A DNA stretch of 64,000 bases from contig NZ_CP086611.1 in NCBI RefSeq assembly GCF_020883495.1, positions 1 through 64,000 on the forward strand, written 5' to 3'. The DNA is from Shinella zoogloeoides (lineage in GTDB: Bacteria; Pseudomonadota; Alphaproteobacteria; Rhizobiales; Rhizobiaceae). The position numbers and the translations under genes were made by a program. Positions 2,235 through 48,957 of the stretch are shown here, in pieces; the first letter of the stretch is position 1, and each line of letters opens with the position of its first letter. The notes under the pieces were generated by a model, which worked only from the letters and a program-made list of their open reading frames with translations, had not been told where the DNA came from and made no database searches.

Positions 2235-2244
2235 TCCGCAAAAG

Positions 2245-2295
2245 AAAAAGGCCCCCTCAACGTTACCGTCGCGGAAGCCCTTCTCATCGTTTAGC
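2245..2295 (-). ncRNA. Antisense counter-transcribed RNA (ctRNA, incompatibility factor) of repABC
   Basis: The repB-repC gap encodes on the minus strand the small RNA that limits repC expression in repABC replicons. The predicted transcript of about 50 nt ends in an intrinsic terminator: arms GGCUUCC and GGGGGCC (plus-strand 2273-2279 and 2250-2256) followed by five U. The gap sequence closely resembles the conserved rhizobial repB-repC spacer. The exact 5' end is inferred from the promoter spacing. Confidence 0.85.
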
Positions 2296-2301
2296 AGCCT
2301 G

Positions 2302-2330
2302 AGAATCGCACTTCCCCGAATCACAGTCAA
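2302..2330 (-). promoter_or_regulatory. Promoter of the repABC antisense RNA
   Basis: On the minus strand a -35 hexamer TTGACT (2325-2330) and a -10 hexamer GATTCT (2302-2307) are separated by exactly 17 bp. The expected start is near 2295, inside the repB-repC spacer and facing repB. Confidence 0.75.
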
Positions 2331-2390
2331 GCCTTTTCGGCGCCGGTTTCGGTGATGGGGTCTCTTTTGCCTGTTGAAAGGTGAAGAGAC

Positions 2391-3713
2391 ATGGAGACGG
2401 ACGACATAACGACGCCCTTCGGGCGGCGGGCGATGACACTTGGCATGCTGGCAAGCCAGGCGATTGCGAAGACGGTTTCGCCGGAAGCGAGCGTCGACAA
2501 GTGGAAGCTTTATCGCTGGCTCTGCGAGGCGCGGCCGAAACTCGGCATCAGCGATCGGGCGCTCTCCGTCCTCAACGCGCTGATGAGCTTTTATCCGAAG
2601 ACCGAGCTTTGCGGCAATGAGGGCCTCGTCGTGTTCCCCTCCAATGCCCAGCTCTCGCTGCGCACCCATGGCATGGCGGAAACGACGCTGCGCCGCCATC
2701 TCGCCGCGCTGGTCGAAGTGGGCCTTCTGACGCGCAGGGACAGCCCGAACGGCAAGCGCTATGTGCGCCGCGACCGGCAGGGTGAGATCGGCGAGGCTTA
2801 CGGCTTTTCGCTTGCGCCCCTGCTTGCGCGGGCAGGGGAGATCGAGACCGTCGCGGCGGAGGTCACGGCAGAGCGTCTGCTGTTGCAGCGTATGCGTGAA
2901 CGGATCACGCTGGTTCGCCGCGATATCGCCAAGCTGATCGAGACGGCTTTGGAAGACGGCCTTCAGGGCGAGTGGATGCGGTATGAGGCGGAATATCGCC
3001 AGCAGGTTCTGGCGCTGCCGCGGGTTGCGACGCCCGAAATCCTGGCGCCGATCCTCGCAGCGCTCGAAGCCTTGCGGGAAGAAATCCTCAAGTGCATGGA
3101 ACAGCAGTTAATTTTAAGAAATACGGCTGGCAATGCCGACCATACTGAGCGGCACAAACAGAATTCAAAACCCGACTCCACTTCTGACTTTGAACCTCGC
3201 TTCGAACCGAAGCAGGGCGGCGATGGCGATATCCGACATGAAGCGCTGGAGGGTGGGCAAGCGGCAGCAGGTACAAGCCGAACCGCAGATGACCCAACAG
3301 ACGGTGCAATACCGGGCGACAGGGATCGCCGCCGCCAGCCCCGGCCGCCAACGGCCAGCGAGCCGCACAAGCCCTACCCGCTGGGTCTCGTCCTGCAGGC
3401 CTGCCCGGAGATTATCCCCTTCGGTCCTGGAGGGGCGATCTCCGGTTGGCGCGACTTGATGACGGCGGCCGTGGTGGTCCGCTCGATGCTGGCCGTCAGT
3501 CCCTCGGCTTACGAAAAGGCCTGCGAGGTGCTGGGGCCTGAAAATGCGGCGACGGTCATCGCCTGCATTTTCGAGCGCTCGGGACACATCAACTCGGCCG
3601 GCGGTTATCTGCGCGATCTGACCCGCAGGGCGGAGCGCGGTGAATTCGCTCTTGGCCCGATGCTGATGGCGCTGGTGCGGGCGAATGCGCATCCGGTGAC
3701 GCGTGCCGGATGA
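2391..3713 (+). CDS. repC: RepC, replication initiator of the repABC replicon
   Basis: RepC is the essential initiator and acts at an origin inside its own gene. The protein of 440 residues is slightly longer than the usual 400-430. The N-terminal two-thirds (about residues 1-260) has the conserved initiator sequence, including SVLNALMSFYPKTEL and the HTH-like region around TTLRRHLAALVEVGLLTRR. A low-complexity linker encoded by AT-richer DNA (3105-3190) precedes the conserved C-terminal domain (about 320-435). Translation is expected to be controlled by the antisense RNA encoded just upstream. The ATG at 2391 has a GGTGAAGAGAC leader as a weak Shine-Dalgarno sequence. Confidence 0.97.
   Translation: METDDITTPFGRRAMTLGMLASQAIAKTVSPEASVDKWKLYRWLCEARPKLGISDRALSVLNALMSFYPKTELCGNEGLVVFPSNAQLSLRTHGMAETTLRRHLAALVEVGLLTRRDSPNGKRYVRRDRQGEIGEAYGFSLAPLLARAGEIETVAAEVTAERLLLQRMRERITLVRRDIAKLIETALEDGLQGEWMRYEAEYRQQVLALPRVATPEILAPILAALEALREEILKCMEQQLILRNTAGNADHTERHKQNSKPDSTSDFEPRFEPKQGGDGDIRHEALEGGQAAAGTSRTADDPTDGAIPGDRDRRRQPRPPTASEPHKPYPLGLVLQACPEIIPFGPGGAISGWRDLMTAAVVVRSMLAVSPSAYEKACEVLGPENAATVIACIFERSGHINSAGGYLRDLTRRAERGEFALGPMLMALVRANAHPVTRAG
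3100..3200. other. Candidate origin of replication (AT-rich segment inside repC)
   Basis: Within repC this segment is clearly richer in A and T than its surroundings (for example TTAATTTTAAGAAATA at about 3108-3123). In characterised repABC plasmids the origin lies in an AT-rich stretch in the repC coding sequence. The assignment rests on position and composition only. Confidence 0.55.
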
Positions 3714-29246: not shown

Positions 29247-29372
29247 ACAATAAATATTTTCCATCCGGTCAAAAATTGGGCATATTGCACGTAGCTGATG
29301 CATATGGCGGTTTTCCTCCCAGTGCCGCCGCACCGGCTGTTCCCCTCTGGAGGTTTTTGACCTTCACACTTC

Positions 29373-29404
29373 ATGGGCCGCGATTTTCGCCGGCCCATTT
29401 TTTT
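29373..29404 (+). terminator. Strong intrinsic terminator in the gap after the GMC gene
   Basis: ATGGGCCG and CGGCCCAT, perfect 8-bp arms with a 10-base loop, are followed by six T. It lies 166 bases past the GMC stop and behind an earlier hairpin, so it may end a separate short transcript. Confidence 0.85.
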
Positions 29405-36715: not shown

Positions 36716-39304
36716 ATGTCCCTGTCTTTCATCCGCGCGTTCGAGGCACGAGGCGAGCGGCCAGCCCTCGTCCTTCCGGGCAACCGCGTCGTCACCTATG
36801 CGGACCTAGCCCGGCGTGTCGCAAGCCGCGCGGCGCTTCTGGGCGGCGGCCGCCGTCTTGTGGCGATCGAGGCCGGCACCTGCGAACATGCGATCGTCAC
36901 CTATCTGGCGGCGCTTTCGGCGGGACATGCGGTGGCGCTCCTGCCGCCCGGGCAATCTTCGGCGCTGGACGCTTTCTGCGAGGATTTCCGGCCGGAAACC
37001 GTTTGCCGCCTCGTCGATGGCCGCTGGCGGATGGATGCCGGCCTTCATCCCGATCCGCAGCCGTTGCATCCCGACCTTGCCCTGCTGCTTTCGACCTCGG
37101 GCTCCACCGGCATCAGCAAGAGCGTGCGGCTCTCGGCCGCCGCCATCGAGGCGAATGCGCGGTCGATTGCCGATTACCTGCGGATCGGCGCGGATGACCG
37201 TGGCCTGCTACTCCTGCCGCTGCACTATTCCTACGGTCTCTCCGTCCTGCACTCCCATCTCGCGGTCGGTGCGAGCCTCTTCGTGCCGCGCCATGCGGTT
37301 CTGGATACGGGGTTCGCGGACGATATCTCCGCGCATGGGGTGACCAATATTGCCGGGGTACCCTTCAGCTACGATCTTTTCGAGCGCATCGGCCTGCGCG
37401 ATCACGCCCTTCCCGCGCTGCGCTTCATGACGGTGGCGGGCGGGCGGCTTTCGCCGGACCTGATCGACCTCTATCGCCGCCGGATGGAAGGTCGTGGCGG
37501 GCGGTTCTTCGTCATGTACGGACAGACGGAAGCGACGGCGCGGATCGCCTATGTGCCGCCGGAGCATCTGGCCGGGCACGAAGACTGCATCGGCATCGCC
37601 ATCCCGGGCGGCAGGCTCGCCCTTGCCGGAGACGACGGGGCGGCGATCACCAGGCCCGGCATGACGGGCGAACTCGTCTATTCCGGCCCGAATGTCATGA
37701 TGGGCTATGCGGGCGGCCGGGCGGACCTGTCGCGCGGCCACGAGACGGGTGACCTCAGGACCGGCGATCTGGCCGAACGGACGGCGGACGGCCTTTATCG
37801 CGTCGTCGGTCGCCTGAAGCGCTTTTCCAAGATCGCCGGCCTGCGCATCGCCCACGATGCGGTCGAGCAGGCGCTGGCCCGCAGCGGCCTCGATGTCGTC
37901 GTGACGGGCACGGACAGCCATCTGACGGCCTTCTTCACCGCCGCCGCCGGTGAAGGCGATGTGCGCGCCCGGCTTGCGGAGGCCAGCGGCCTGACCCTGC
38001 TGCATGTGAGCGCCCGGCGGATCGCCGCCTTTCCCCGCAATGCCAGCGGCAAGATCGACTATGCGGCGCTGGCTGCCCTGTCCGCCGCGCGCCCGGCCGA
38101 GGCCGGTGGCGTGCGCGAGGCCTTCCGGCGCGCCTTCTTCCCGAAGATCGTCGGGGACGACGACAGCTTCGTTGCGCTGGGCGGGGATTCCCTGCGGTTC
38201 GTGGAGCTGTCTCTCGGGCTGGAGCAGGCTCTCGGCGCCCTGCCGGACGACTGGGACCGCATGACAGTCGGCGCGCTTGCCGCCCGGGAGCCGCAAACGG
38301 CGGTCTTGCCGAGGGTCGGTGCCGATATTGCCCTGCGGGTCTTCGCCATTCTGCTCGTGGTCCTGCATCACGAAATGCTCTGGCCGATCCCGGGCGGCTC
38401 CGCCCTGATGCTGGTTCTGGTCGGCTTCTCGCTGGCGCGGTTCCAGCAGGCGAATTTCGCGGAAGGCGACTGGAAAGCCCTGTTGCGGCCGCTCGTCATG
38501 GTGTTCGTGCCCTATGCGGCGGTGCTGGCCGGCTATGCGCTGGCATGGGGCGCGGTTCCCTGGGCGTCGGTGTTCCTGGTCGGGAACTTCGGCTTCGCCG
38601 ATCCGGTGCGCCATACCATGCTGCCCTATCTTTACTGGTTCGTGGAGCTTTTCACGCAGATCCTGCTGCTCTTCGCCGTACTTTCCTTCGTGCCGTGCGC
38701 GCGGACCGCCGTTGCGCGCAACCCCTTCGCGGCCGGGCTTTTCGTGCTGGCCTTCGCCGTCTTCCTCCGCTTCTCGGCGCCGCTCGTCGTGGATATCGGC
38801 AACCGGCAGATTTTCACGCTGTACTGGAACCTCCACCTCGTCGCCTTCGGCTGGTGCGCCTGGCTGGCGCCCGGGCCGCGCAGCAGGGCGCTTCTCGCCA
38901 CGCTCGCGGCGGCCCTGTTCTTCGTTCTCGGCTTCGTCGATGGCGTGTGGATCGGCACGACGGTGAAATACCTCGTCGTATTCAGCGGCTTCCTCGCGCT
39001 TCTCTTCCTGCCGGCGCTACCGGTGCCGCGATGGCTGTTTGCCGCGCTGATGCCCGTGGCGGCGGCGAGCTATCATATCTACCTGTTCCACCGATTGGTG
39101 CCGGAAGTGCTGATGGCGCCCCTGCACGGTACGGGCATCGCGCCTGCGCTCTTCCATGGGGCCGCCATTCTCGGCGGCCTTGCCGCCGGCATCGCCGTAT
39201 GGGCGCTCCAGCGGGTCGCCGTCCGGCGGCTTGCCGCCACCCGCCTCGAAGCCCCGGCCTGGAAGGGTGTTTCCAGGCCGGGGGCGAAGCGGGCGCTTTC
39301 CTGA
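36716..39304 (+). CDS. Adenylation-carrier-membrane acyltransferase fusion protein
   Basis: This 862-residue protein combines three parts. Residues ~1-455 are an AMP-forming adenylation domain with LLLSTSGSTGISKS at 123-136, MYGQTEATARIAYVPP and FPRNASGKIDY. Residues ~460-530 are a carrier domain with FVALGGDSLRFVEL, whose Ser (about 491) would carry phosphopantetheine. Residues ~535-840 are a hydrophobic domain with about 8-10 membrane segments, starting LRVFAILLVVLHHEMLWPIP, resembling acyltransferase-3 proteins. It would activate an acid in the cytosol, load it on its own carrier and transfer it across or onto a membrane or envelope acceptor. The substrate is unknown. It appears to be transcribed alone; TTGACA lies about 35 bases upstream. 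Confidence 0.85.
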   Translation: MSLSFIRAFEARGERPALVLPGNRVVTYADLARRVASRAALLGGGRRLVAIEAGTCEHAIVTYLAALSAGHAVALLPPGQSSALDAFCEDFRPETVCRLVDGRWRMDAGLHPDPQPLHPDLALLLSTSGSTGISKSVRLSAAAIEANARSIADYLRIGADDRGLLLLPLHYSYGLSVLHSHLAVGASLFVPRHAVLDTGFADDISAHGVTNIAGVPFSYDLFERIGLRDHALPALRFMTVAGGRLSPDLIDLYRRRMEGRGGRFFVMYGQTEATARIAYVPPEHLAGHEDCIGIAIPGGRLALAGDDGAAITRPGMTGELVYSGPNVMMGYAGGRADLSRGHETGDLRTGDLAERTADGLYRVVGRLKRFSKIAGLRIAHDAVEQALARSGLDVVVTGTDSHLTAFFTAAAGEGDVRARLAEASGLTLLHVSARRIAAFPRNASGKIDYAALAALSAARPAEAGGVREAFRRAFFPKIVGDDDSFVALGGDSLRFVELSLGLEQALGALPDDWDRMTVGALAAREPQTAVLPRVGADIALRVFAILLVVLHHEMLWPIPGGSALMLVLVGFSLARFQQANFAEGDWKALLRPLVMVFVPYAAVLAGYALAWGAVPWASVFLVGNFGFADPVRHTMLPYLYWFVELFTQILLLFAVLSFVPCARTAVARNPFAAGLFVLAFAVFLRFSAPLVVDIGNRQIFTLYWNLHLVAFGWCAWLAPGPRSRALLATLAAALFFVLGFVDGVWIGTTVKYLVVFSGFLALLFLPALPVPRWLFAALMPVAAASYHIYLFHRLVPEVLMAPLHGTGIAPALFHGAAILGGLAAGIAVWALQRVAVRRLAATRLEAPAWKGVSRPGAKRALS

Positions 39305-39314
39305 AGGCCGCCGG

Positions 39315-40097
39315 CTACATGGCGTGGCCGCCGATATAGCCGAGCGATGCGGCGGCCATCCACACGGCCATGGCGATCATCATCAGGTTCTCCGTCAGCG
39401 AGATGAAGCCGAGCGGAACGTTGCTCGCGCCGCCGACGCAGGCGCATTTCAGTTCGCGCCGGTCGATATAGACGGCCTTGAAGACCGAGGACGCGCCGAC
39501 CGTGCCGATGAACAGGGCGACCGGAACCGACAGCCAGTTGAGCGCGCCCGCCACCATCAGCACCCCGGCAAGCCCCTCGGCATAGGGGTAGATGTAGCTA
39601 TAGGGCACCCAGCGCCTGGCGAGCAGGTCGTAGTTGAGGAACATCGTGGCGAAGCTTTCGACGTTCTGCAGCTTCAGCATGGCGAGCACGACCATCGAAA
39701 AGGCGATGAACCATTCCGCCGCCTTCAGCGTGAAGGGCGAGCCGCTGGCCGCGAAGCTCGCCGCCATGGCCATGAACGCCGTCAGCGTGAACAGCACGAT
39801 GACCGGGCGATAGGTGGTCGCCGCCGGGTCTGCGACGGGCTTGCCGAGATAGCGGCGCAGGTCGTCGTAGCCGCCGATGCGCGCGCCGTCGATGAAGACC
39901 TGCGGGGTGGTGGCGACGCCGTGCTGCGCCTTGAAGGAGTCGGTCTCCTCACGGGTCGTCAGGTGGCGGTCCTCGACCTCGTAGCCCGAGCGGCGCAGGA
40001 GGTCCTTCGCCTTCAGTCCGTAGGGGCAGGTATGGTGCGCCGTCACCATGCGGTAGAGGATGGCCTTGCGGCCGGCGTTCTGAACCTTGTCCAACAT
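39315..40097 (-). CDS. Glutaredoxin-MauE fusion membrane protein
   Basis: This 260-residue protein has an N-terminal glutaredoxin-like domain (about 1-85) with TCPYG, a single-cysteine variant of CPYC, and TTPQVFIDGARIGGYDDL. A four-segment MauE/DoxX-like membrane domain follows (about 98-255), with CACVGGASNVPLGFISLTEN as the conserved cysteine/proline region. MauE-type proteins support disulfide or redox handling at the membrane. The ATG at 40097 is preceded by AGGAGACGTGAG. The promoter is a mer-type element shared with the divergent MerR gene, so it should be induced by a thiol-binding metal or redox signal. Confidence 0.88.
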   Translation of the reverse strand: MLDKVQNAGRKAILYRMVTAHHTCPYGLKAKDLLRRSGYEVEDRHLTTREETDSFKAQHGVATTPQVFIDGARIGGYDDLRRYLGKPVADPAATTYRPVIVLFTLTAFMAMAASFAASGSPFTLKAAEWFIAFSMVVLAMLKLQNVESFATMFLNYDLLARRWVPYSYIYPYAEGLAGVLMVAGALNWLSVPVALFIGTVGASSVFKAVYIDRRELKCACVGGASNVPLGFISLTENLMMIAMAVWMAAASLGYIGGHAM

Positions 40098-40131
40098 CTC
40101 ACGTCTCCTGTCTTGTGAAACCGTTGGATGG

Positions 40132-40553: not shown

Positions 40554-40731
40554 GCAGCGGCCCCTGATGCGGTGCGAAGGGGCGTCTTAACGGTCTGTTG
40601 GCCTAGTCTTGCAACAGGCATTTAGGAGTCTGGCGTTAAGGTGCGGGCATGGGCGGCGCGTGCGCGCCGCGTTTGCATGCCGGCGCCTGCGGCGGCCCGG
40701 CGATCCGCAGGATGGGGAGATCGCGTTGGCG

Positions 40732-42027
40732 ATGGATGCGCAGACCATATTCACGACGGCTTCCGTGATGGTGCTTGCCAACGGCGCCATCCTGACGGCC
40801 ATGGGCCGGGAACTGCCGGCGAGCCTGCGGCCCGCCGCCATCCACTGGTGCCTCGGCACGTTGCTGATCGCGTTCGGCTGCGTCGTGTTCGCCTTCGGCG
40901 GGCCGCTGCCGCGCCCGCTGATGCTATCGGCCGCCAATATGGCCTTCGCCTTCGGTCTGACGGTCTATCTCGTGGCGATCCGCCTGTTCCTGCGGCTGGA
41001 GATCAAGGCCTGGTTCTTCCTGCCGGCTCTGGTGGCTTCGGGTGCGGTGGCCTGGTTCTCGGCCGTCATGCCCAGCTTTTCCGCCCGCATGGTCATCGTT
41101 TCCATCGTCTGGGCCGGCCTGATGCTGGTGTGCGTGAAGGACCTTGCCGATCCGTCGCGCGGAAATCCTTCCCTTGCGCGCTCGATCCTTGGCGCGATGT
41201 TCGCCGTGGTCGGCCTCTATGCCGTTGCGCGCTGCGGTTTCTATCTCCTCGCCGCGCCGCCCGCGGACTTCGCCGTCGAGGCCGGCGGCAACTGGCTGAA
41301 CGTGCTGTCGGCCCTCCTGATGACGCTGCTGCCGGTCATGGGCACGACGGCCTTTCTGCTGATGTGCTCGGACCGCCTGCGGCGCGGGCTGGAGCGCGCC
41401 GCGGCGACCGACTACCTGACGGGCCTTCCCAACCGGCGCAGCCTTGCCAAGGCAGGGGCCGACGCCTTCGTCGAGGCGCGGGCCGGAGGCGGCGAGTTCG
41501 CCGTCGCGGTCTTCGACGTCGACAAGTTCAAGGCGGTCAACGACAGCTATGGGCACGACACCGGCGACCGCGCGCTGATCCACGTCGCCAACCGGCTGAG
41601 TGGGCAATTGCGCCCGACGGACATCATCGCCCGCACGGGCGGCGAGGAATTCGTCGTGCTGCTGCGGGTGCTTGCTCCGGATGATGCGCTTGCGATTGCC
41701 GAGCGCATGCGCCTCGCCGTCGAACAGAGCGATTTTTCCGTCGATGGCCGCAGGGTCGGGCTGACCATCTCGGCGGGCCTTGCCGTCCGCATCGCCGGCG
41801 ATGCGGACTATGACAGCGTGCTGCGCCGGGCGGACGATGCGCTCTACCGCGCCAAGGAAAACGGCCGCAACCGCGTGGAGACCGCGCCCGGCGACGTTTC
41901 ACCGCCGGACGATCCGGCGTCCGGGCGGCTGGTGATCTGCGATCCGCCGGCTATATCCGGCGAGGACTGGCCCCTGCCGGAGGAAGGCCCGCAGGCCCGC
42001 CTCCTCTACGGTCAGATTTCGAGATAG
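40732..42027 (+). CDS. Membrane-bound diguanylate cyclase (GGEEF)
   Basis: This protein of about 431 residues makes cyclic di-GMP. Six or seven membrane segments fill residues 1-215; the GGDEF domain follows with ARTGGEEFVVLL near 303 and an inhibitory I-site RPTD five residues earlier (LRPTDIIARTGGEEF), so product inhibition is expected. The start is ATG at 40732; TTG at 40726 is also possible, with GGGGAGA upstream. The 3' end overlaps the convergent octapeptide-repeat gene by 16 bases. Confidence 0.92.
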   Translation: MDAQTIFTTASVMVLANGAILTAMGRELPASLRPAAIHWCLGTLLIAFGCVVFAFGGPLPRPLMLSAANMAFAFGLTVYLVAIRLFLRLEIKAWFFLPALVASGAVAWFSAVMPSFSARMVIVSIVWAGLMLVCVKDLADPSRGNPSLARSILGAMFAVVGLYAVARCGFYLLAAPPADFAVEAGGNWLNVLSALLMTLLPVMGTTAFLLMCSDRLRRGLERAAATDYLTGLPNRRSLAKAGADAFVEARAGGGEFAVAVFDVDKFKAVNDSYGHDTGDRALIHVANRLSGQLRPTDIIARTGGEEFVVLLRVLAPDDALAIAERMRLAVEQSDFSVDGRRVGLTISAGLAVRIAGDADYDSVLRRADDALYRAKENGRNRVETAPGDVSPPDDPASGRLVICDPPAISGEDWPLPEEGPQARLLYGQISR

Positions 42028-45000
42028 GACGAAATCAGCGCGGCGATATCGGACTGCGGGTCGCTGGCGGCCGGCGGCTCCTCCGTCACGATCTCCGTGT
42101 CGCCTGCGGCAGCGCCGTCGCCCGCTCCCGTCAGGCTGAAGGCGAAGCCCGATACGCCCGGACCGCGCGGCAGGGCCGCGATCTGCGACGAGGTCATGGC
42201 CGCAAGCTGGCTCGGCGTGAAGGCGTTGGCCTGTTCGTTGGTCAGCCCGGCAAGGGCGGCGGTGCCGAGACCGCCGATGGCGTTCGGGCTGAGCGCGAGG
42301 ATATGCTCCACCGAGAAGGCGCCGAGGTCGTCGGCCCCGAGCGCCGCGGCCTGGGTCGCCGTCAGCGCGCCGACCTGCCCGGTCGAGAGCGCGGCGACCT
42401 GCGAGACGCTCATGGCGCCCATCTGTCCATAGGTGAGGGCGGCCAACTGGTCCTTTGTCAGGGCGGCGACGCTTTCGGTCGGCAGAGTGCCGATGACGGA
42501 TGACGAAAGCCCCTTGATGGCCGTCGCGCTCATGGCGGCAAGCTCGGCGGTGGAGATCGTCTGCATCTGCGCGGTCGAAAGGCCCGACGTGCCCGGTATG
42601 GTCAGGGCGGATATCTGGGCGAGCGACAGGGCTTCGACCTGTTCGGTCGAGAGCGCGGCGACCTGGGCGCTGCTGAGGCCGGCGATGGCGCCCGTGCCGA
42701 GGGCGGCGATCTCGGCCACCGTCAGCGTTGCGACATAGCTCGCCGGCAGGCCCTTGATGGCGGCCGGGGCGATGGCTGCGAGCTTGTCCTTCGAGAAAGT
42801 GTCGAGCGCCTCGCTGGAGAAGCCGCCGATTGCGGCGGCGGTGAGCGCGGCGATCTGGCCGGTGCCGAGGGCTTCGGCCTGTTCGAAGGTGAGGCCGGCG
42901 GCCTGCGTGCCGGTGAGGCCGGCAAGGCCGCTTGCGCTGAGCGCGGCGATCTGGCGGGGTGTCAGGGCCGCGATGTCGGCGACCGCGAGCGCCGCCACCT
43001 GCTTTGAGGAGAGCGCATTCACCTGCGCGGTCGAGAAGGAGGCGATCTGGCCCGGCGCGAGCGCCGCGATCTGCCCCGTCGTCATGCCGCCGATGCCCGA
43101 GGGGCTGAGCGCCTCGAGCTGCTCGGGCGAGAAGCCGGCAAGGATCGTTTCCGAAAGGCCGGGCATGGCGACCGAGCCGATGGCCGCGATGTCGGCAGGC
43201 GAGAACAGCGCGATGTCGGCCGCGTCGAAGGCCGCCATCTGGCGGGAGGTGAGGGCGCCGATCTGCGTTGCGGTCAGGGCTTCGACCTGATCGGCGCTGA
43301 GCGCGGTGATCTGCTCGCTCGACAGGCCGGAAATGCCGGCCGTGCTGAGGGCGGCGATCTGCGCGGTGGTCAGCGAGGCGATCATGCCGGTCGTCAGGCC
43401 CGTCACGGCCCGCGATCCGATGGCCGCGATATCGGCGATCGAGAACAGGGCGAGGTCGTCGGCGCTGAGCGCCGCGATCTGCCGCGAGGAGAGCGCGCCG
43501 ACCTGCGCCGGGGTCAGGGCCTCGGCCTGCGCGGTGCTGAGGGCTGCGACCTGATCGGTGCCGAGCGCATGGACACCGTCCGTGCTGAGCGCCGCGATCT
43601 GCCGGGGCGACAGCGCCGCGATATCGTCCGTGCCGAGCGCTGCGATCTGCGCGGAGCCGAATGCGGCCATCTGGAGCGTCGTCAGGGCCTCGAACTGGGT
43701 GCTGCTCAGCGCGTCGATCTGCGCGCCGGTAAGGCCGGCGGCGTTGATCGCGGCGATCTGGCCCGGCGTGAAGGCGGCGATGGCCGCCGTCGGAAGCCCG
43801 GCAAGGGCGCGCGAACTGATCGCGGCGATTTCCGCGGTGGTGAAGGTTTCGAGATTTTCGGCGCTGAGCGCCGCGATCTGCGTGGAATTGAGCGCTGCGA
43901 TCTGCGTGCTGCTGAGCGCTTCGGCCTGCGCGGCCGTCAGGGCGCCGATCTGCGCGCCGGTAAGGCCGGAAACGCCCGCAGAGCCGAGCGCTGCGATCTG
44001 CGCGGGGGAAAGCGCCGCGATATCCTCGGTGCCGAGGGCCGCGACCTGCCGGGAGCCGAGGGCGGCGAGCTGCGTCGTTGTGAGCGCGCCGACCTGGGCG
44101 GAGGAAAGGGTGGCGACCTGGTCGCTCGTCATGCCGGAAATGCTGGCCGCGCCGAGGGATGCGACCTGCGCGGTCGTCAGCGCGGCGAGCATGGCGGAGG
44201 TCAGGCCCGGCACGGCGGCGGCGCCGATTGCGGCCATGTCGGCGGTGGAGAAGGTGGCGATCCCGCCAGCGTCGAGGGCGGCGATCTGGCGCGAGCCGAG
44301 GGCCGCGACCTGCGTCGGCGTCAGGGCCTCGGCCTGGGCGCTGGTGAAGGCGGCGACCTGCTCGGGCGAGAGCGCGCCGATGGTGGCGGCGCTGAGGGCG
44401 GCGACCTGCTCGGGCGAGAGCGTCGCGATATAGTCCGGTCCGAGAATGGCGATCTGGCGCGCATTGAGCGCGCGCATCTGCTCCGGTTTCAGGGAATCGA
44501 TCTGCTCGCTGGTGAAGGCCGCGACCTGCCGTGGCTCCATGCCGTTGATGGCGGCGGTGCTGAGCGCCGCGATCTGCGCCGTCGAGAGCGATGCGACCGT
44601 CGCCGTCGACAGGCCCGTGATGGCGTCCGCGCGGATGGCGGCGATTTCGCGCGGGGCGAAGGTGGCGATATCGCCGCTCGAGAAGGCGGCGATCTGCGCG
44701 GCGCTCAATGCGCCGATCTGGGCGCTCGTCAGCGCCTCGGCCTGCGCGGTGCTGAGCGTGGCGATCTGGCCCGAGGTCAGTCCGCTGACGCCGGCAGAGC
44801 TGAGCCGTGCGATCTGGGCGGTCGTGAGCGCGGTGATGGTGTCGCTCGTCAGGCCCGCTATCGCGCCGGAGGTGATGGCGCCCATCTCGGAAAGGGAGAA
44901 GGTCGCAAGGTCGTCCGGGCCGAGGGCGGCGACCTGGCCGGAGGTGAGGGCTGCGATCTGGCCGGCGTTGAGCGCTTCGGCCTGCGCGGTGCTGAGGGCC

Positions 45001-48000
45001 GCGATCTGCTGGGTGGTCATCGCGCCGACCGCCGCCGGGTTCAGGGCGGCGATCTGGGACGTGGTGAGGGCGGCGATGACGGCCGGCGACAGGCCGCGGA
45101 TGGCCTCCGAGGTGATCATCGCCATGTCCCGCGCCGTGAAGGTCGCGATGTCGTCGGCGCCAAGTTCGGCGATCTGTTCGGATTTCAGCGCGCCGACCTG
45201 CACGCTGGTCAGCGCCTCGGCCTGGCTGGTGGTGAGTGCGCCAAGCTGCTGCGAGGTGAAGCCGGCGATGCTGCCGGCATTCAGCGCGGCGATCTGCGCG
45301 GCCGTCAGCGCGGCGATCTTGTCCGTGCCGAAGGCGGGAATCTGGCCGGAGGTGATTGCGCCCATCTGGCGGACGCTGAGCGCTGCGATCTGGCCTGTGC
45401 CGAGGGCGGCGATCTGGCCGGAGGTGAGGCCGGCGATGCCGGAGGCGCTGAGCGCGGCGATCTGCTGCGTTGTCAGCCCCGCGACATCGCTCGCCTTGAG
45501 GGCGGCGACCTGCTTGGACGAGAGGGCCGCCACCTGAAGCGTCGTCATGGCGGCGAGCTGGTCCGGGGTGAGGAGGCCGATCTGGTCTGTGCGCAGCCCG
45601 CTGACCGCCGACGGGCTGAGACTGCCGATCTGCGCGGGGGAAAGAGCCTTGAGGTCGTCGTCGAGCGCGGCGGCCTGTGTCCCCGTCAGGGCCTTGAGCT
45701 GGGCGGCGGAGAGCTGGCTGACCTGCAGCGAACTCAGCGCCTCGATCTGGCTCGGCGTCAGCCCGGCGAAGCTGCCGGTGGCAAGCGCAGCGATCTGATC
45801 CGACGTGAGGGAGGCGAAGAGATGCGGCGAGAGGCCGGAAACCGCCCCCTTGTTCAGCGCGGCGATCTGCGCGGTGGAAAGGGCGGGCATGTCGCGCGCC
45901 TCGAGGCCGGCGATCTGCGCGGAGGTGAGGGCGGCGATCTGTGCGGTGGTGAGCGCGGCGATCTGCGCCGTGGACAGCGCTTCGATCTGGTCGGCCGTCA
46001 TGGCGGCCAGCGCGGCGCGGTTGAGCGCCGTGGTCTGGGTCGGCGACAGCCCGGCGAGCGCATCGCCGCTGATGCCCTTGACGGCCCGGTTGCCGATTGC
46101 GGCGACATCCGCCGTCGAGAAGGTCGCAAGGTCGGCCGCGCTGAGGGCGGCGAGCTGGGTGGAGGAAAGCGCCGAAATCTGCCCGGGCGTCAGCGCCTCG
46201 ACCTGCGCGGTAGACAGCGCCTCGATCTGGTCCGGCGTCATGCCGCCGATGCTGGTCGCGCCGATGGCTGCAATCTGCGCCGTCGTCAGCGAGGCGAGGA
46301 AGTCCGGATCCAGCGAGGCGATCTGCATGGGTGTGAGGCTGCGGATCTGCGTGCTGGTGAAGGCGGCGATCTGGTCGGGCGAAAGCTCGGACAGGGAAAG
46401 GCTGTCGAGGCCTGCCATGGCCTGGGTGCTGATTGCGGCGAGATCGTCGGTGGAGAAGGTGGCGATGCCCTCCGGCCCGAGGGCGAGAAGCTGCCGGGCG
46501 TTCATGACGCGGACCTGGCCCGGCGTCAGCGCCTCGATCTGGTCGGTGCCGAGCACGTCGATCTGGCTGGTGGAGAGGCCGGCGATCACGCTCGGGCTGA
46601 GCGCGGCGATCTGGTCTGGCGTCAGCGCGGCGATGACGGCGGTGGGCAGGCCCGCGACGGCCCTGCTGCTGAGGGCGGCGATATGCGCGGTGGAGAATTC
46701 CGAGAGCGCGTCGGAGTTCATGGCCGAAAGCTGCACGGAGGTGAGCGCGGCGATCTGCTTGAGCGACAGCGCCTCGATCTGCTCCGGGCTCATCGCGCGG
46801 ATCTGCGCTGCGCCGAGGCCGGAAAGCGCGGCCGTGGCGATGGCGGCGATCTGCTCGGAGGAAAGCTCCGCGATGGCGTCGCTGCGGATGCCGACGATGG
46901 CCTTGGCGGTGAGAGCGGCGATATCGGCGGTGGAGAAGGTCGCGAGCGCCTCGCCCGACAGCGCGGCGAGATGCACGGCGCTGAGGGCTTTGACCTGGGT
47001 GGGTGTGAAGGCCTCGACTTGTTCGGCGTCGAGGGCTGCGATCTGCGTGGACTTGAGGGCGGCGATCTGGACGACGCTGAGGGCGAGGATCTGGTCGGTG
47101 GAGAGCGCGGCCATCGCGTCGGAGCTAAGGCCCGACAGCGCGGCGGTCTGGATCGCGCCGATATCCGCCTTGGAGAAGCGCTTCAGCGCTTCGGGGTCGA
47201 TGGCGGCGATCTGCTTGGCCGTCAGCGCGCGCGTCTGGAGCGGCGTGAACGCCTCGATCTGTTCCTCGCTCATCGACGCGATCTGCGCCGGCGTCAGCCC
47301 GGCGATCGCGCCGACGCTGAGCGCGGCGATCTGCGCCGTGGTCATGCCCGAAATCGCGTCGGTGGTGAGGCCCGAGAGCGCGTTGGCCGAAAGCGCCGCG
47401 ATCTTCGCGGGCGTCATCGCCGCGACGTCGTCCTCGTCGAATGCGCCGATCTGCTGGGCGGTGAAGCCCCTGAGCTGTGTCTGCGAGAAGGCTTCGATCT
47501 GGCTGGGCGTCAGCGCGTCGATCTGCGCCGAGGTCAGCCCCTTGACGGCGGTGCTGGCGAGCGCGGCGATCTGGCTGCTGGACAGCAGTTCGATCGTGTC
47601 GGTGCTGAGGGCGGCGACCTGCCGAGCGTCGAGCGCGGCGATCTGGCCCGGCTTCAGGGCGCCGGCCTGCTCGTCGGACAGGGCGGCGATGGCGGCGGTG
47701 CCCAGCCCCTTGATGCCGGCGACCGAAAGGGCGGCGATGCTGTCGCTGGAAAGCTCGGCGATATCGTCGGTGCCGAAGGTGGAAACCTGTGCGGCGGTGA
47801 GAACGGCGAGCTGCGCGGGCTTCAGGCTGGCGATCTGCTCGGGGCTGAGCGCGTTCATCTGGGCGATGGTCAGGCCGGGCAGCGCCTGCAGGCTGATCGC
47901 CCCGAGCTGCTCGACGGTGAGGCTGGCGATCGTCTCCGTGCCGAGACCGGGTATGGCCTTTGCGGAAAACGCGGTCAGCTCGTCGAGCGAGAAGAGGGCG

Positions 48001-48815
48001 ATATCGTCCGCGCTCATAGCCGCGAGCTGCGGGGCGCTGAGCGCCCTGGACTGGGCGGCCGTCAGAGCCTCGATCTGCTCGTCCTCGAGGGCAACGATCT
48101 GCCGTGGCAGCAGGCCCGTGATCGCACTGGTGCTGAGCGCGGCGATCTGCCCTGTCGAAAAGGCCATGACGGCCTCGTCGCTGAGCGCGGAAATCTGGGC
48201 GGGCTTGAGCAGCGCGACCTGGGCGGTGGTGAGCGCCTGGATCTGGTCCGAGGTGAGGCCGGCGACCTGAGTGGCGGTGAGGCCGGCAATGGCGAGCGGG
48301 CTCATTGCCGCGAACTGCTCGCTGGAAAGGGCCGCGAGCGCTTCGTTGCCGAGCCCCTGCACGCCCTTGTAGCTGATCGCCGCCATGTCCTCGGCCGAGA
48401 AGGTCTGGAGGTCCTCGATATCGAGGGCGGCAAGCTGGGCCGCGCTCAGCGCCTGGACCTGCGAGGCCGTCAGCGCCTCGGCCTGGGCGGAGGAGAGCGT
48501 GTTGATCTGCTTGGTGGTCAGCGCGGCGATCTGCCCGGAGGTCAGGCCTTCGATCTGGCCCGTCGTGCTCCGGTTGAGCGCCCCGATCTGGTCGAGCGAC
48601 AGGCCGACGATAGCGCTTTGCGAAATGGCGCGAATCTGGCTGGCGCTGAGGATTTCGATATCCTGCGCCTCCAGCGCGGCGATCTGCCGGGAGGAGAAGG
48701 CGCCGATCTGGCTCGACGAAAGCGAGGCCACGTCTTCCGTCGACCAGGCCCTGATCGCATCCGTCGAGAGCTGCCGGATCTGGCTGGGGCTGAGCGTGGA
48801 AACGATCGACGTCAT
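42012..48815 (-). CDS. Giant octapeptide-repeat protein (2267 residues)
   Basis: Nearly the whole protein is an 8-residue repeat, [L/F/I/M]-[S/T]-x-x-[Q/D/E]-[I/V]-x-[A/G], for example LTTAQIAA, LSSRQIAA, LSTAGISG. I can follow about 270 units from residue ~8 to ~2207 with only a few breaks: an 11-residue unit near the N-terminus (LNRSTTGQIEG), a 7-residue unit (LDDDLKA) and a 5-residue remnant (INAAG). A super-repeat of mostly ten units (80 residues) is visible, marked by a unit ending IAT/LAT followed by FSTADIAA. There is no Sec signal peptide, no Cys in the octad array and few aromatics. A unique acidic tail of about 55 residues ends ISSYLEI and could be a type I secretion signal. ATG at 48815 (MTSIVSTLSP). 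Function unknown; a surface or secreted adhesin/solenoid is possible. Confidence 0.85.
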   Translation of the reverse strand: MTSIVSTLSPSQIRQLSTDAIRAWSTEDVASLSSSQIGAFSSRQIAALEAQDIEILSASQIRAISQSAIVGLSLDQIGALNRSTTGQIEGLTSGQIAALTTKQINTLSSAQAEALTASQVQALSAAQLAALDIEDLQTFSAEDMAAISYKGVQGLGNEALAALSSEQFAAMSPLAIAGLTATQVAGLTSDQIQALTTAQVALLKPAQISALSDEAVMAFSTGQIAALSTSAITGLLPRQIVALEDEQIEALTAAQSRALSAPQLAAMSADDIALFSLDELTAFSAKAIPGLGTETIASLTVEQLGAISLQALPGLTIAQMNALSPEQIASLKPAQLAVLTAAQVSTFGTDDIAELSSDSIAALSVAGIKGLGTAAIAALSDEQAGALKPGQIAALDARQVAALSTDTIELLSSSQIAALASTAVKGLTSAQIDALTPSQIEAFSQTQLRGFTAQQIGAFDEDDVAAMTPAKIAALSANALSGLTTDAISGMTTAQIAALSVGAIAGLTPAQIASMSEEQIEAFTPLQTRALTAKQIAAIDPEALKRFSKADIGAIQTAALSGLSSDAMAALSTDQILALSVVQIAALKSTQIAALDAEQVEAFTPTQVKALSAVHLAALSGEALATFSTADIAALTAKAIVGIRSDAIAELSSEQIAAIATAALSGLGAAQIRAMSPEQIEALSLKQIAALTSVQLSAMNSDALSEFSTAHIAALSSRAVAGLPTAVIAALTPDQIAALSPSVIAGLSTSQIDVLGTDQIEALTPGQVRVMNARQLLALGPEGIATFSTDDLAAISTQAMAGLDSLSLSELSPDQIAAFTSTQIRSLTPMQIASLDPDFLASLTTAQIAAIGATSIGGMTPDQIEALSTAQVEALTPGQISALSSTQLAALSAADLATFSTADVAAIGNRAVKGISGDALAGLSPTQTTALNRAALAAMTADQIEALSTAQIAALTTAQIAALTSAQIAGLEARDMPALSTAQIAALNKGAVSGLSPHLFASLTSDQIAALATGSFAGLTPSQIEALSSLQVSQLSAAQLKALTGTQAAALDDDLKALSPAQIGSLSPSAVSGLRTDQIGLLTPDQLAAMTTLQVAALSSKQVAALKASDVAGLTTQQIAALSASGIAGLTSGQIAALGTGQIAALSVRQMGAITSGQIPAFGTDKIAALTAAQIAALNAGSIAGFTSQQLGALTTSQAEALTSVQVGALKSEQIAELGADDIATFTARDMAMITSEAIRGLSPAVIAALTTSQIAALNPAAVGAMTTQQIAALSTAQAEALNAGQIAALTSGQVAALGPDDLATFSLSEMGAITSGAIAGLTSDTITALTTAQIARLSSAGVSGLTSGQIATLSTAQAEALTSAQIGALSAAQIAAFSSGDIATFAPREIAAIRADAITGLSTATVASLSTAQIAALSTAAINGMEPRQVAAFTSEQIDSLKPEQMRALNARQIAILGPDYIATLSPEQVAALSAATIGALSPEQVAAFTSAQAEALTPTQVAALGSRQIAALDAGGIATFSTADMAAIGAAAVPGLTSAMLAALTTAQVASLGAASISGMTSDQVATLSSAQVGALTTTQLAALGSRQVAALGTEDIAALSPAQIAALGSAGVSGLTGAQIGALTAAQAEALSSTQIAALNSTQIAALSAENLETFTTAEIAAISSRALAGLPTAAIAAFTPGQIAAINAAGLTGAQIDALSSTQFEALTTLQMAAFGSAQIAALGTDDIAALSPRQIAALSTDGVHALGTDQVAALSTAQAEALTPAQVGALSSRQIAALSADDLALFSIADIAAIGSRAVTGLTTGMIASLTTAQIAALSTAGISGLSSEQITALSADQVEALTATQIGALTSRQMAAFDAADIALFSPADIAAIGSVAMPGLSETILAGFSPEQLEALSPSGIGGMTTGQIAALAPGQIASFSTAQVNALSSKQVAALAVADIAALTPRQIAALSASGLAGLTGTQAAGLTFEQAEALGTGQIAALTAAAIGGFSSEALDTFSKDKLAAIAPAAIKGLPASYVATLTVAEIAALGTGAIAGLSSAQVAALSTEQVEALSLAQISALTIPGTSGLSTAQMQTISTAELAAMSATAIKGLSSSVIGTLPTESVAALTKDQLAALTYGQMGAMSVSQVAALSTGQVGALTATQAAALGADDLGAFSVEHILALSPNAIGGLGTAALAGLTNEQANAFTPSQLAAMTSSQIAALPRGPGVSGFAFSLTGAGDGAAAGDTEIVTEEPPAASDPQSDIAALISSYLEI

Positions 48816-48957
48816 GGGCAAAGTCCTGGAAAAAACAAACGGATGAACACACAAATCCATAGTCTGGCAGCTTGCTCGATACAGATGTGAGCTTGCCTGA
48901 GCCTGTAGGTGTGTTCCCGCCTGTCGGACTTGCACGCGGGCCGTGTGGCCGGCCCGC

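Follow-up and report, generated by a model that had tools for sequence, protein, structure and literature searches.

The octad-repeat gene and its protein

The first 64,000 nucleotides of contig NZ_CP086611.1 of the soil bacterium Shinella zoogloeoides (assembly GCF_020883495.1, forward strand; the whole stretch is called the window here) carry on the minus strand a gene for a 2267-residue protein built from eight-residue repeats, or octads, of the ALTTAQ family. We find that ALTTAQ genes pair with one clade of OGT-type glycosyltransferases that carry tetratricopeptide repeats (TPRs) and belong to family GT41. This partnership, a second period of ~3.4 octads and a near-fixed array length in Shinella are the new observations. 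The gene comprises the following features, all on the minus strand:

42012..48815: coding sequence of the long-form ALTTAQ-repeat protein (2267 residues, W mark present), from its open reading frame, start and PF20080 match
48824..48827: AGGA, likely ribosome-binding site, 8 nt before the ATG, by inspection
48795..48815: leading peptide, residues 1-7 (MTSIVST), with similar starts in relatives
48744..48746: codon of Trp24 (the W mark), the protein's sole Trp, invariant across 18 long orthologues
42174..48794: 274-octad array (residues 8-2214), interrupted in a few places by 3-7 residues
42015..42173: tail, residues 2215-2267, a variable-length Gly/Ser/Pro-rich linker followed by a conserved end
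42018..42059: predicted C-terminal helix, residues 2253-2266, IISSYLEI-type end (pLDDT ~50)

The gene starts with an ATG at 48815. An alternative GTG start, giving 2307 residues, is unlikely, as 17 orthologues from the genus share the downstream start with the window protein; 17 of these 18 proteins begin with MTS and one with MPS. A long antisense frame of 1773 residues was rejected as a gene because the octad pattern, the conserved start and the ratio of nonsynonymous to synonymous substitution (dN/dS) favour the minus strand. The IISSYLEI-type C-terminus is common to many orthologues, with other endings at loci L032, L038 and L051 (L and G numbers are our handles for loci and genomes). The protein, with its single Trp, lacks Cys; Ser/Thr make up 20% of it (460 residues), and the computed pI is 4.1. 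No hydrophobic Sec-type signal was seen by eye in its N-terminus. A promoter scan found none on the gene's strand, and a terminator scan gave no more than shuffled sequence did.

Octads were parsed by dynamic programming, which placed 280 over the whole protein, the last six of them forced onto the tail. Position 1 is L/F/I/M in 275/280, position 2 is S/T in 200/280, position 5 is Q in 154/280, position 6 is I/V/L/M in 256/280 and position 8 is A/G in 225/280. Residues eight positions apart are identical at a rate of 0.31, whereas lags that are not multiples of 8 give a median of 0.09. The resulting layout of seven leading residues, 274 octads and a 53-residue tail agrees with a preliminary description of this DNA, which had read the same octad pattern, 'about 270' units and a tail of ~55 residues.

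That description recognised no named family and gave only unannotated rhizobial hits as a supporting outcome. Neither held. Profile search matched the protein to Pfam PF20080, the ALTTAQ repeat, over 87 stretches with 1100.7 bits, above the curated cut-off of 26.4 bits, and ALTTAQ proteins also turned up in further classes and phyla, where they frequently include modules of extracellular type. By its profile PF20080 is the same octad as the window repeat, although the family name carries no function. A search of a large protein database, in which only the candidates sharing most words were scored, returned distant relatives and no rhizobial orthologue among the matches listed (120 of 255 and 120 of 244). 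Pfam matches to CAAP1, Sigma70_r4_2, LRR_EndoS and others, NCBIfam matches below their cut-offs, and leucine-rich-repeat (LRR) chains matched by sequence in the PDB were set aside as repeat-composition effects, without further test. The PHROG phage family phrog_15773 also matches the window protein strongly (E 2e-42), and some phages seem, from this match, to carry the same octad.

Two AlphaFold2 models, together covering 698/2267 residues, had pLDDT values of 89 and 86, and in them nearly every octad forms one short helix with its S/T at the N-cap position; the tail linker falls below pLDDT 50. The earlier proposal of one capped short helix per octad in a solenoid, unlike beta-type octapeptide solenoids, is borne out by these models, in which there is no strand. 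Ice-nucleation proteins, which are solenoids of the beta type, have a strand per repeat, and the window protein has no such Pfam match. The best solved-structure match by sequence was by far HeliScrew4 (PDB 9zem; E 1.8e-17 over 109 residues), the next being an LRR kinase at E 2.3e-5. HeliScrew4 has only 120 residues and is likely a designed protein, a guess from its name; the likeness is one of sequence, as 9zem was not among the structure-search matches. Among the papers searched, none contained ALTTAQ, PF20080 or HeliScrew. Foldseek-type comparison gave no evidence of kinship with the mesothelin/stereocilin superhelix; the mesothelin rows had TM-scores of 0.18-0.35 and Z values in the range that the tool calls common for repeats.

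Array length, conservation and the second period

The 18 long proteins of the genus, including that of the window, span 2218-2269 residues, and the other members are 57-93% identical to the window protein. Within the array they differ by indels of 1-3 residues at a handful of places and by one 8-residue deletion (L025). The remaining length change is confined to the tail, where most alignment indels lie. Among the 274 octads, position 5 is the most conserved, with invariant columns in 166, against 115 for position 1 and 112 for position 8. Selection on the repeat at the protein level, as the preliminary description had argued from the preserved register, is supported by dN/dS values of 0.15-0.48 against eight of the 17 orthologues.

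ALTTAQ proteins linked to a GT41 gene vary in length: those at 13 loci of the genus range from 806 to 1551 residues. The two smallest (L045, L050) carry the W mark too, and the mark is therefore not confined to long proteins. Among the 19 loci of the long class in the genus, no neighbour cluster was common to more than nine. In genome G002 the long gene lies in two frames (L026), which is either a recent break or a sequencing error. At L151, L152, L155, L158, L181, L197, L201, L202, L209 and L214, among others, the contig ends inside the ALTTAQ gene, and draft assemblies may under-report these proteins.

A second period of 3.3-3.5 octads was found in 78/112 distinct arrays. This band makes up 5.8% of the frequency range scanned (2-5 octads), and related arrays are not independent. 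Other peaks lay at 2.4 octads (20 arrays) and 2.0 octads (8 arrays). The strongest super-period among 110 distinct arrays was 17 octads in 53, 10 in 32, 34 in 8, 24 in 6, 7 in 5, 48 in 2, 27 in 2, and 14 and 31 in one each; every one of these falls within 0.4 of some multiple of 3.4 octads. For the window protein, ten octad features were put to a Fourier test and compared with the maxima of 500 shuffles. Gly at position 8 peaked at 3.36-3.37 octads with a power of 25.9, compared with a shuffle-maxima mean of 6.4 (p 0.002), and Glu at position 7, charge at position 4 and Ala at position 5 peaked at the same period (p <= 0.006). Gln and Asp/Glu at position 5 both peaked at 8.6 octads, and three of the ten features gave no significant peak. 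The ~3.4-octad period would correspond to the pitch of a superhelix.

GT41 enzymes, export genes and the wider neighbourhood

The Shinella genome (4.85 Mb in 5 contigs) encodes a shorter ALTTAQ paralogue on contig 1, between flagellin and mot genes and beside glf and a TPR-GT41 gene. This is the sole GT41 gene of the genome, and it lies on a different contig from the long ALTTAQ gene of the window. Its product combines TPRs with a PF13844 (Glyco_transf_41) domain at 239.7 bits, and among PDB entries human OGT and XcOGT match it best. In eight aligned GT41 sequences His278 and Lys447 never vary; they line up with a His and a Lys of both OGT and XcOGT, which we take to be active-site residues.

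A tree of 51 GT41 proteins contains a clade of 30 (support 100/99) made up of 28 ALTTAQ-linked rows plus the enzymes of G002 and G020, two members of the genus; outside it lie one ALTTAQ-linked row, L103, and the unlinked GT41 that were sampled in those genomes. G002 and G020 have no ALTTAQ gene beside the enzyme but do have a long one in the genome. GT41 genes of G029, G034 and G035 were only partly sampled for this tree. Since its rows were partly chosen by ALTTAQ, a test was run without that choice. An alignment of eight linked enzymes was searched against named genomes, and the best 80 of 549 confirmed stretches were taken by GT41 similarity alone; most are from Rhizobiaceae and hence not independent. 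An ALTTAQ frame was present at 74/80 loci, within 1518 bp of the enzyme frame in all 74, within 1 kb in 67 and within 200 bp in 44. The genomes of all six other loci (L144, L145, L147, L183, L196, L207) have PF20080 elsewhere. The ALTTAQ detector made no call in ~1.9 Mb of controls: the window minus the gene (57 kb), 20 unlinked GT41 loci (70 kb), the 80 loci reversed (1.56 Mb) and flanks of long-class loci (220 kb).

Among 61 relatives, GT41 was found in 24/24 genomes with ALTTAQ and 7/37 without (Fisher 5e-11 by genome), or 5/5 and 6/36 when counted by genus (6e-4). The control genomes gave a match in Caulobacter. In other families, GT41 adjoins ALTTAQ in L060, L095, L100 and L102 and lies ~4-6 kb away in L092, L096 and L103. 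These computed associations show ALTTAQ genes paired with one clade of TPR-OGT enzymes, though more patchily outside the set picked by GT41. Proteins with the W mark occur at 24/80 loci, alongside the other class at nine of them, and the window protein's kind is therefore a regular GT41 neighbour in other genera.

Other genes recur at the 80 GT41 loci. A glf gene was found at 55 by similarity and 41 by clustering, and a galE-like gene, judged by eye, at eight. From glf, we would suggest galactofuranose somewhere in the glycan or its pathway, though the partner enzyme itself resembles GlcNAc transferases. A ~440-residue protein (L155:4012-5325 and relatives) is present at 20/80; its one match, weak and partial, is to Methyltransf_FA (PF12248), and it is possibly part of the same glycan system. 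The flagellar-cluster ALTTAQ frames at L110, L112 and L113 (genomes G001, G008 and G019) are shorter and diverged, at ~720 residues, and start with MSIISAL. Paired ALTTAQ frames stand beside GT41 and glf in L116 (G016) and L148 (Shinella fusca), the larger of each pair having the W mark, which points to duplication and class mixing inside the genus.

The preliminary description had proposed a check of surface localisation, and sequence context elsewhere favours a surface or secreted nature. Other ALTTAQ proteins carry RTX, two-partner-secretion (TPS), ESPR, Calx-beta, Ig-like, G8 and calpain domains, as well as autotransporter names; some of these domain names were assigned from accession numbers. 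Type I secretion genes accompany ALTTAQ at some distant loci: OEP, HlyD and ABC genes in L102, ABC and HlyD genes in L092, L103 and L105, and in L096 a similar, putative ABC frame. The window protein has no RTX nonapeptide (GGxGxD) and no match to PF00353, which is present in some other ALTTAQ proteins. The TPS domain PF05860 gave no match in it up to E 10; a search of its own genome for PF05860 also gave none, and the controls of that search were unmatched likewise.

The wider window contains these features:

2238-2284, minus strand: ctRNA_p42d antisense RNA (Rfam)
2325-2393, plus strand: S-element (Rfam)
29293-29402, plus strand: Alphaproteobacterial ar15 small RNA (114 bits)
36716-39304, plus strand: 862-residue protein that joins AMP-binding and phosphopantetheine domains to an extended hydrophobic C-terminal part
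39315-40118, minus strand: fusion of a glutaredoxin and a MauE-type membrane domain, its gene divergent from that of a regulator which by eye is MerR-like
40609-42027, plus strand: GGDEF diguanylate cyclase gene, convergent with the ALTTAQ gene; the two 3' ends share 16 bases

The first two mark a repABC replicon and place the start of the window close to the origin of a plasmid or chromid. By eye, the hydrophobic part of the 862-residue protein looks like an acyltransferase. A relative of the GGDEF gene also occurs in L026, L029, L041 and L056.

A probable glycosylated, exported solenoid and its relation to known systems

The ALTTAQ protein is probably an exported solenoid that the GT41 enzyme O-glycosylates in the cytoplasm, in trans for the window protein. 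We consider this the best explanation because a TPR-OGT is co-inherited with the repeat. The protein would form a very long, rod-like superhelix in which each octad contributes one helix of 4-6 residues capped by the Ser/Thr at position 2, with ~3.4 octads per turn of the screw. A dedicated cytoplasmic TPR-OGT would add sugars to some of the many Ser/Thr, and the protein would then leave the cell independently of a Sec signal, type I secretion being the likeliest route. The end product would be a glycosylated surface or released filament acting as spacer, attachment or coat. The long Shinella protein, encoded on another replicon, would be modified in trans by the enzyme beside the paralogue in the flagellin cluster, as we infer from its being the genome's single GT41. 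The more specific proposal, that ALTTAQ proteins are dedicated TPR-OGT substrates forming a glycosylated, exported screw and that the 274-octad length in Shinella is nearly fixed because the protein serves as a molecular spacer of set reach, has in our view just short of an even chance.

Several results weigh against this explanation. In G002 and G020 the flagellin cluster that houses the GT41 gene contains no ALTTAQ gene, and G005, which lacks ALTTAQ, carries a divergent GT41 in its flagellar cluster. In the class sample, GT41 was present in 5/6 ALTTAQ-positive genomes compared with 147/385 genomes overall by PF13844 (p 0.03). Of 18 distant stretches, six contain GT41 (L092, L095, L096, L100, L102, L103) and one a weak match (L105); it was not found in the other 11 (L090, L091, L093, L094, L097, L098, L099, L101, L104, L106, L107), where L101 is the far end of the gene in L102 and the octad detector made no ALTTAQ call in L091 and L097. 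On the side of export, no ABC, HlyD or OEP gene stands beside the window gene, its immediate neighbours being GGDEF and cupin genes; three PrtD-type ABC genes score above cut-off in the Shinella genome, but none lies near the window gene or is otherwise tied to it, although secretion genes can work in trans. Inspection by eye of the 22 neighbour clusters that recur most at the 80 loci picked out no type I secretion gene. As for the fold, 34/112 arrays peak outside 3.3-3.5 octads, mostly at 2.4 and 2.0, and Foldseek against the PDB gave low TM-scores to the entries listed. The Ser/Thr count of the window protein peaks at 9.7 octads, off the 3.36-octad period, and the abundance of S/T at position 2 is no proof of acceptor use because helix N-caps can explain it.

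The enzyme could instead be a flagellin glycosyltransferase, with the short ALTTAQ protein a flagellum-associated partner (exported like flagellin, or a helper of the enzyme) and the long paralogue an unrelated surface protein. Flagellin may indeed be a GT41 substrate, because the GT41 genes of G002, G020 and G005 lie in flagellin or flagellar clusters, in the first two beside flagellins and with the short ALTTAQ gene missing; the short Shinella gene, for its part, sits between flagellin and mot genes. Caulobacter FlmG provides a precedent as a TPR flagellin O-glycosyltransferase (PMC7591256). However, a flagellar gene was matched at 10/74 ALTTAQ-linked GT41 loci and at none of the other 64, some of whose stretches end at contig ends, and the GT41-ALTTAQ linkage extends to distant families without a flagellin match in the stretch. 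The start of the short paralogue, MTSII, does resemble flagellin MTSIL, but a flagellin-mimicking N-terminus was rejected, as MTSI starts are common at non-flagellar Rhizobium loci too. We regard this explanation as unlikely.

A second alternative keeps the ALTTAQ protein inside the cell as a scaffold or inhibitor of GT41 rather than a secreted substrate. OGT acts in the cytoplasm, and TPR superhelices bind elongated peptides. The want of a Sec signal by eye and of secretion genes beside the gene would fit such a role, as would the cytoplasmic location of GT41 enzymes such as HMW1C (PMC3983070). Against it, ALTTAQ repeats share proteins with the RTX, TPS, ESPR and Ig-like modules and autotransporter names listed above, and type I secretion genes adjoin them at several distant loci, which makes an intracellular role quite improbable. 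That the protein is glycosylated and surface-exposed but serves mainly to coat the cell or shield it from phage or predators, and not as adhesin or spacer, draws on the same points as the exported, O-glycosylated solenoid, and the results here do not separate surface roles; we think it very doubtful. Expansion of octads by slippage in a protein without constrained function is hardly credible: it would suit the 806-to-1551-residue spread of the GT41-linked proteins, the strong 17-octad self-similarity in several of them and the broken long gene of G002, but not the 18 long orthologues with their single octad-sized deletion and otherwise 1-3 residue array indels, the dN/dS values of 0.15-0.48 or the invariance of position 5 in 166/274 octads.

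If the glycosylated, exported solenoid is correct, the ALTTAQ protein would be a natural solenoid in which each octad supplies a single short helix, a design that HeliScrew4 appears to copy. Bacteria commonly encode TPR-OGT-like enzymes, and a near one-to-one partnership with an orphan repeat family offers a testable substrate; the accessible part of one paper on a bacterial OGT names no native substrate. By analogy, the nearest working model is HMW1/HMW1C, in which a GT41 enzyme, whose gene shares a locus with that of a very large secreted protein, glycosylates the giant HMW1 adhesin at many sites in the cytoplasm before export (PMC3983070). The window protein is nevertheless not of the HMW1 kind. 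HMW1C is N-linking, has an AAD domain and serves a two-partner-secretion protein, whereas the ALTTAQ partner has TPRs and matches OGT and XcOGT; HMW1-type substrates carry a TPS domain and N-linked sites, and the window protein has no TPS match and only two N-X-S/T sites in 2267 residues. FlmG likewise joins TPRs to a glycosyltransferase acting in the cytoplasm on exported proteins, but it is described as a new O-glycosyltransferase class for flagellins and is set beside GT41 by description only (PMC7591256).

Serine-rich repeat (SRR) glycoproteins are glycosylated by Gtf enzymes. They are Gram-positive proteins whose Ser/Thr-rich repeats are O-glycosylated inside the cell and then displayed at the surface (PMC6973325, PMC7948813). 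Linkage to an O-glycosyltransferase gene, as in an SRR-like class, was found at 74/80 loci, and for the window gene in trans only. ALTTAQ proteins differ in their Gram-negative hosts, their TPR-OGT and their predicted regular helical solenoid, and would give the SRR glycoproteins a structured Gram-negative equivalent.

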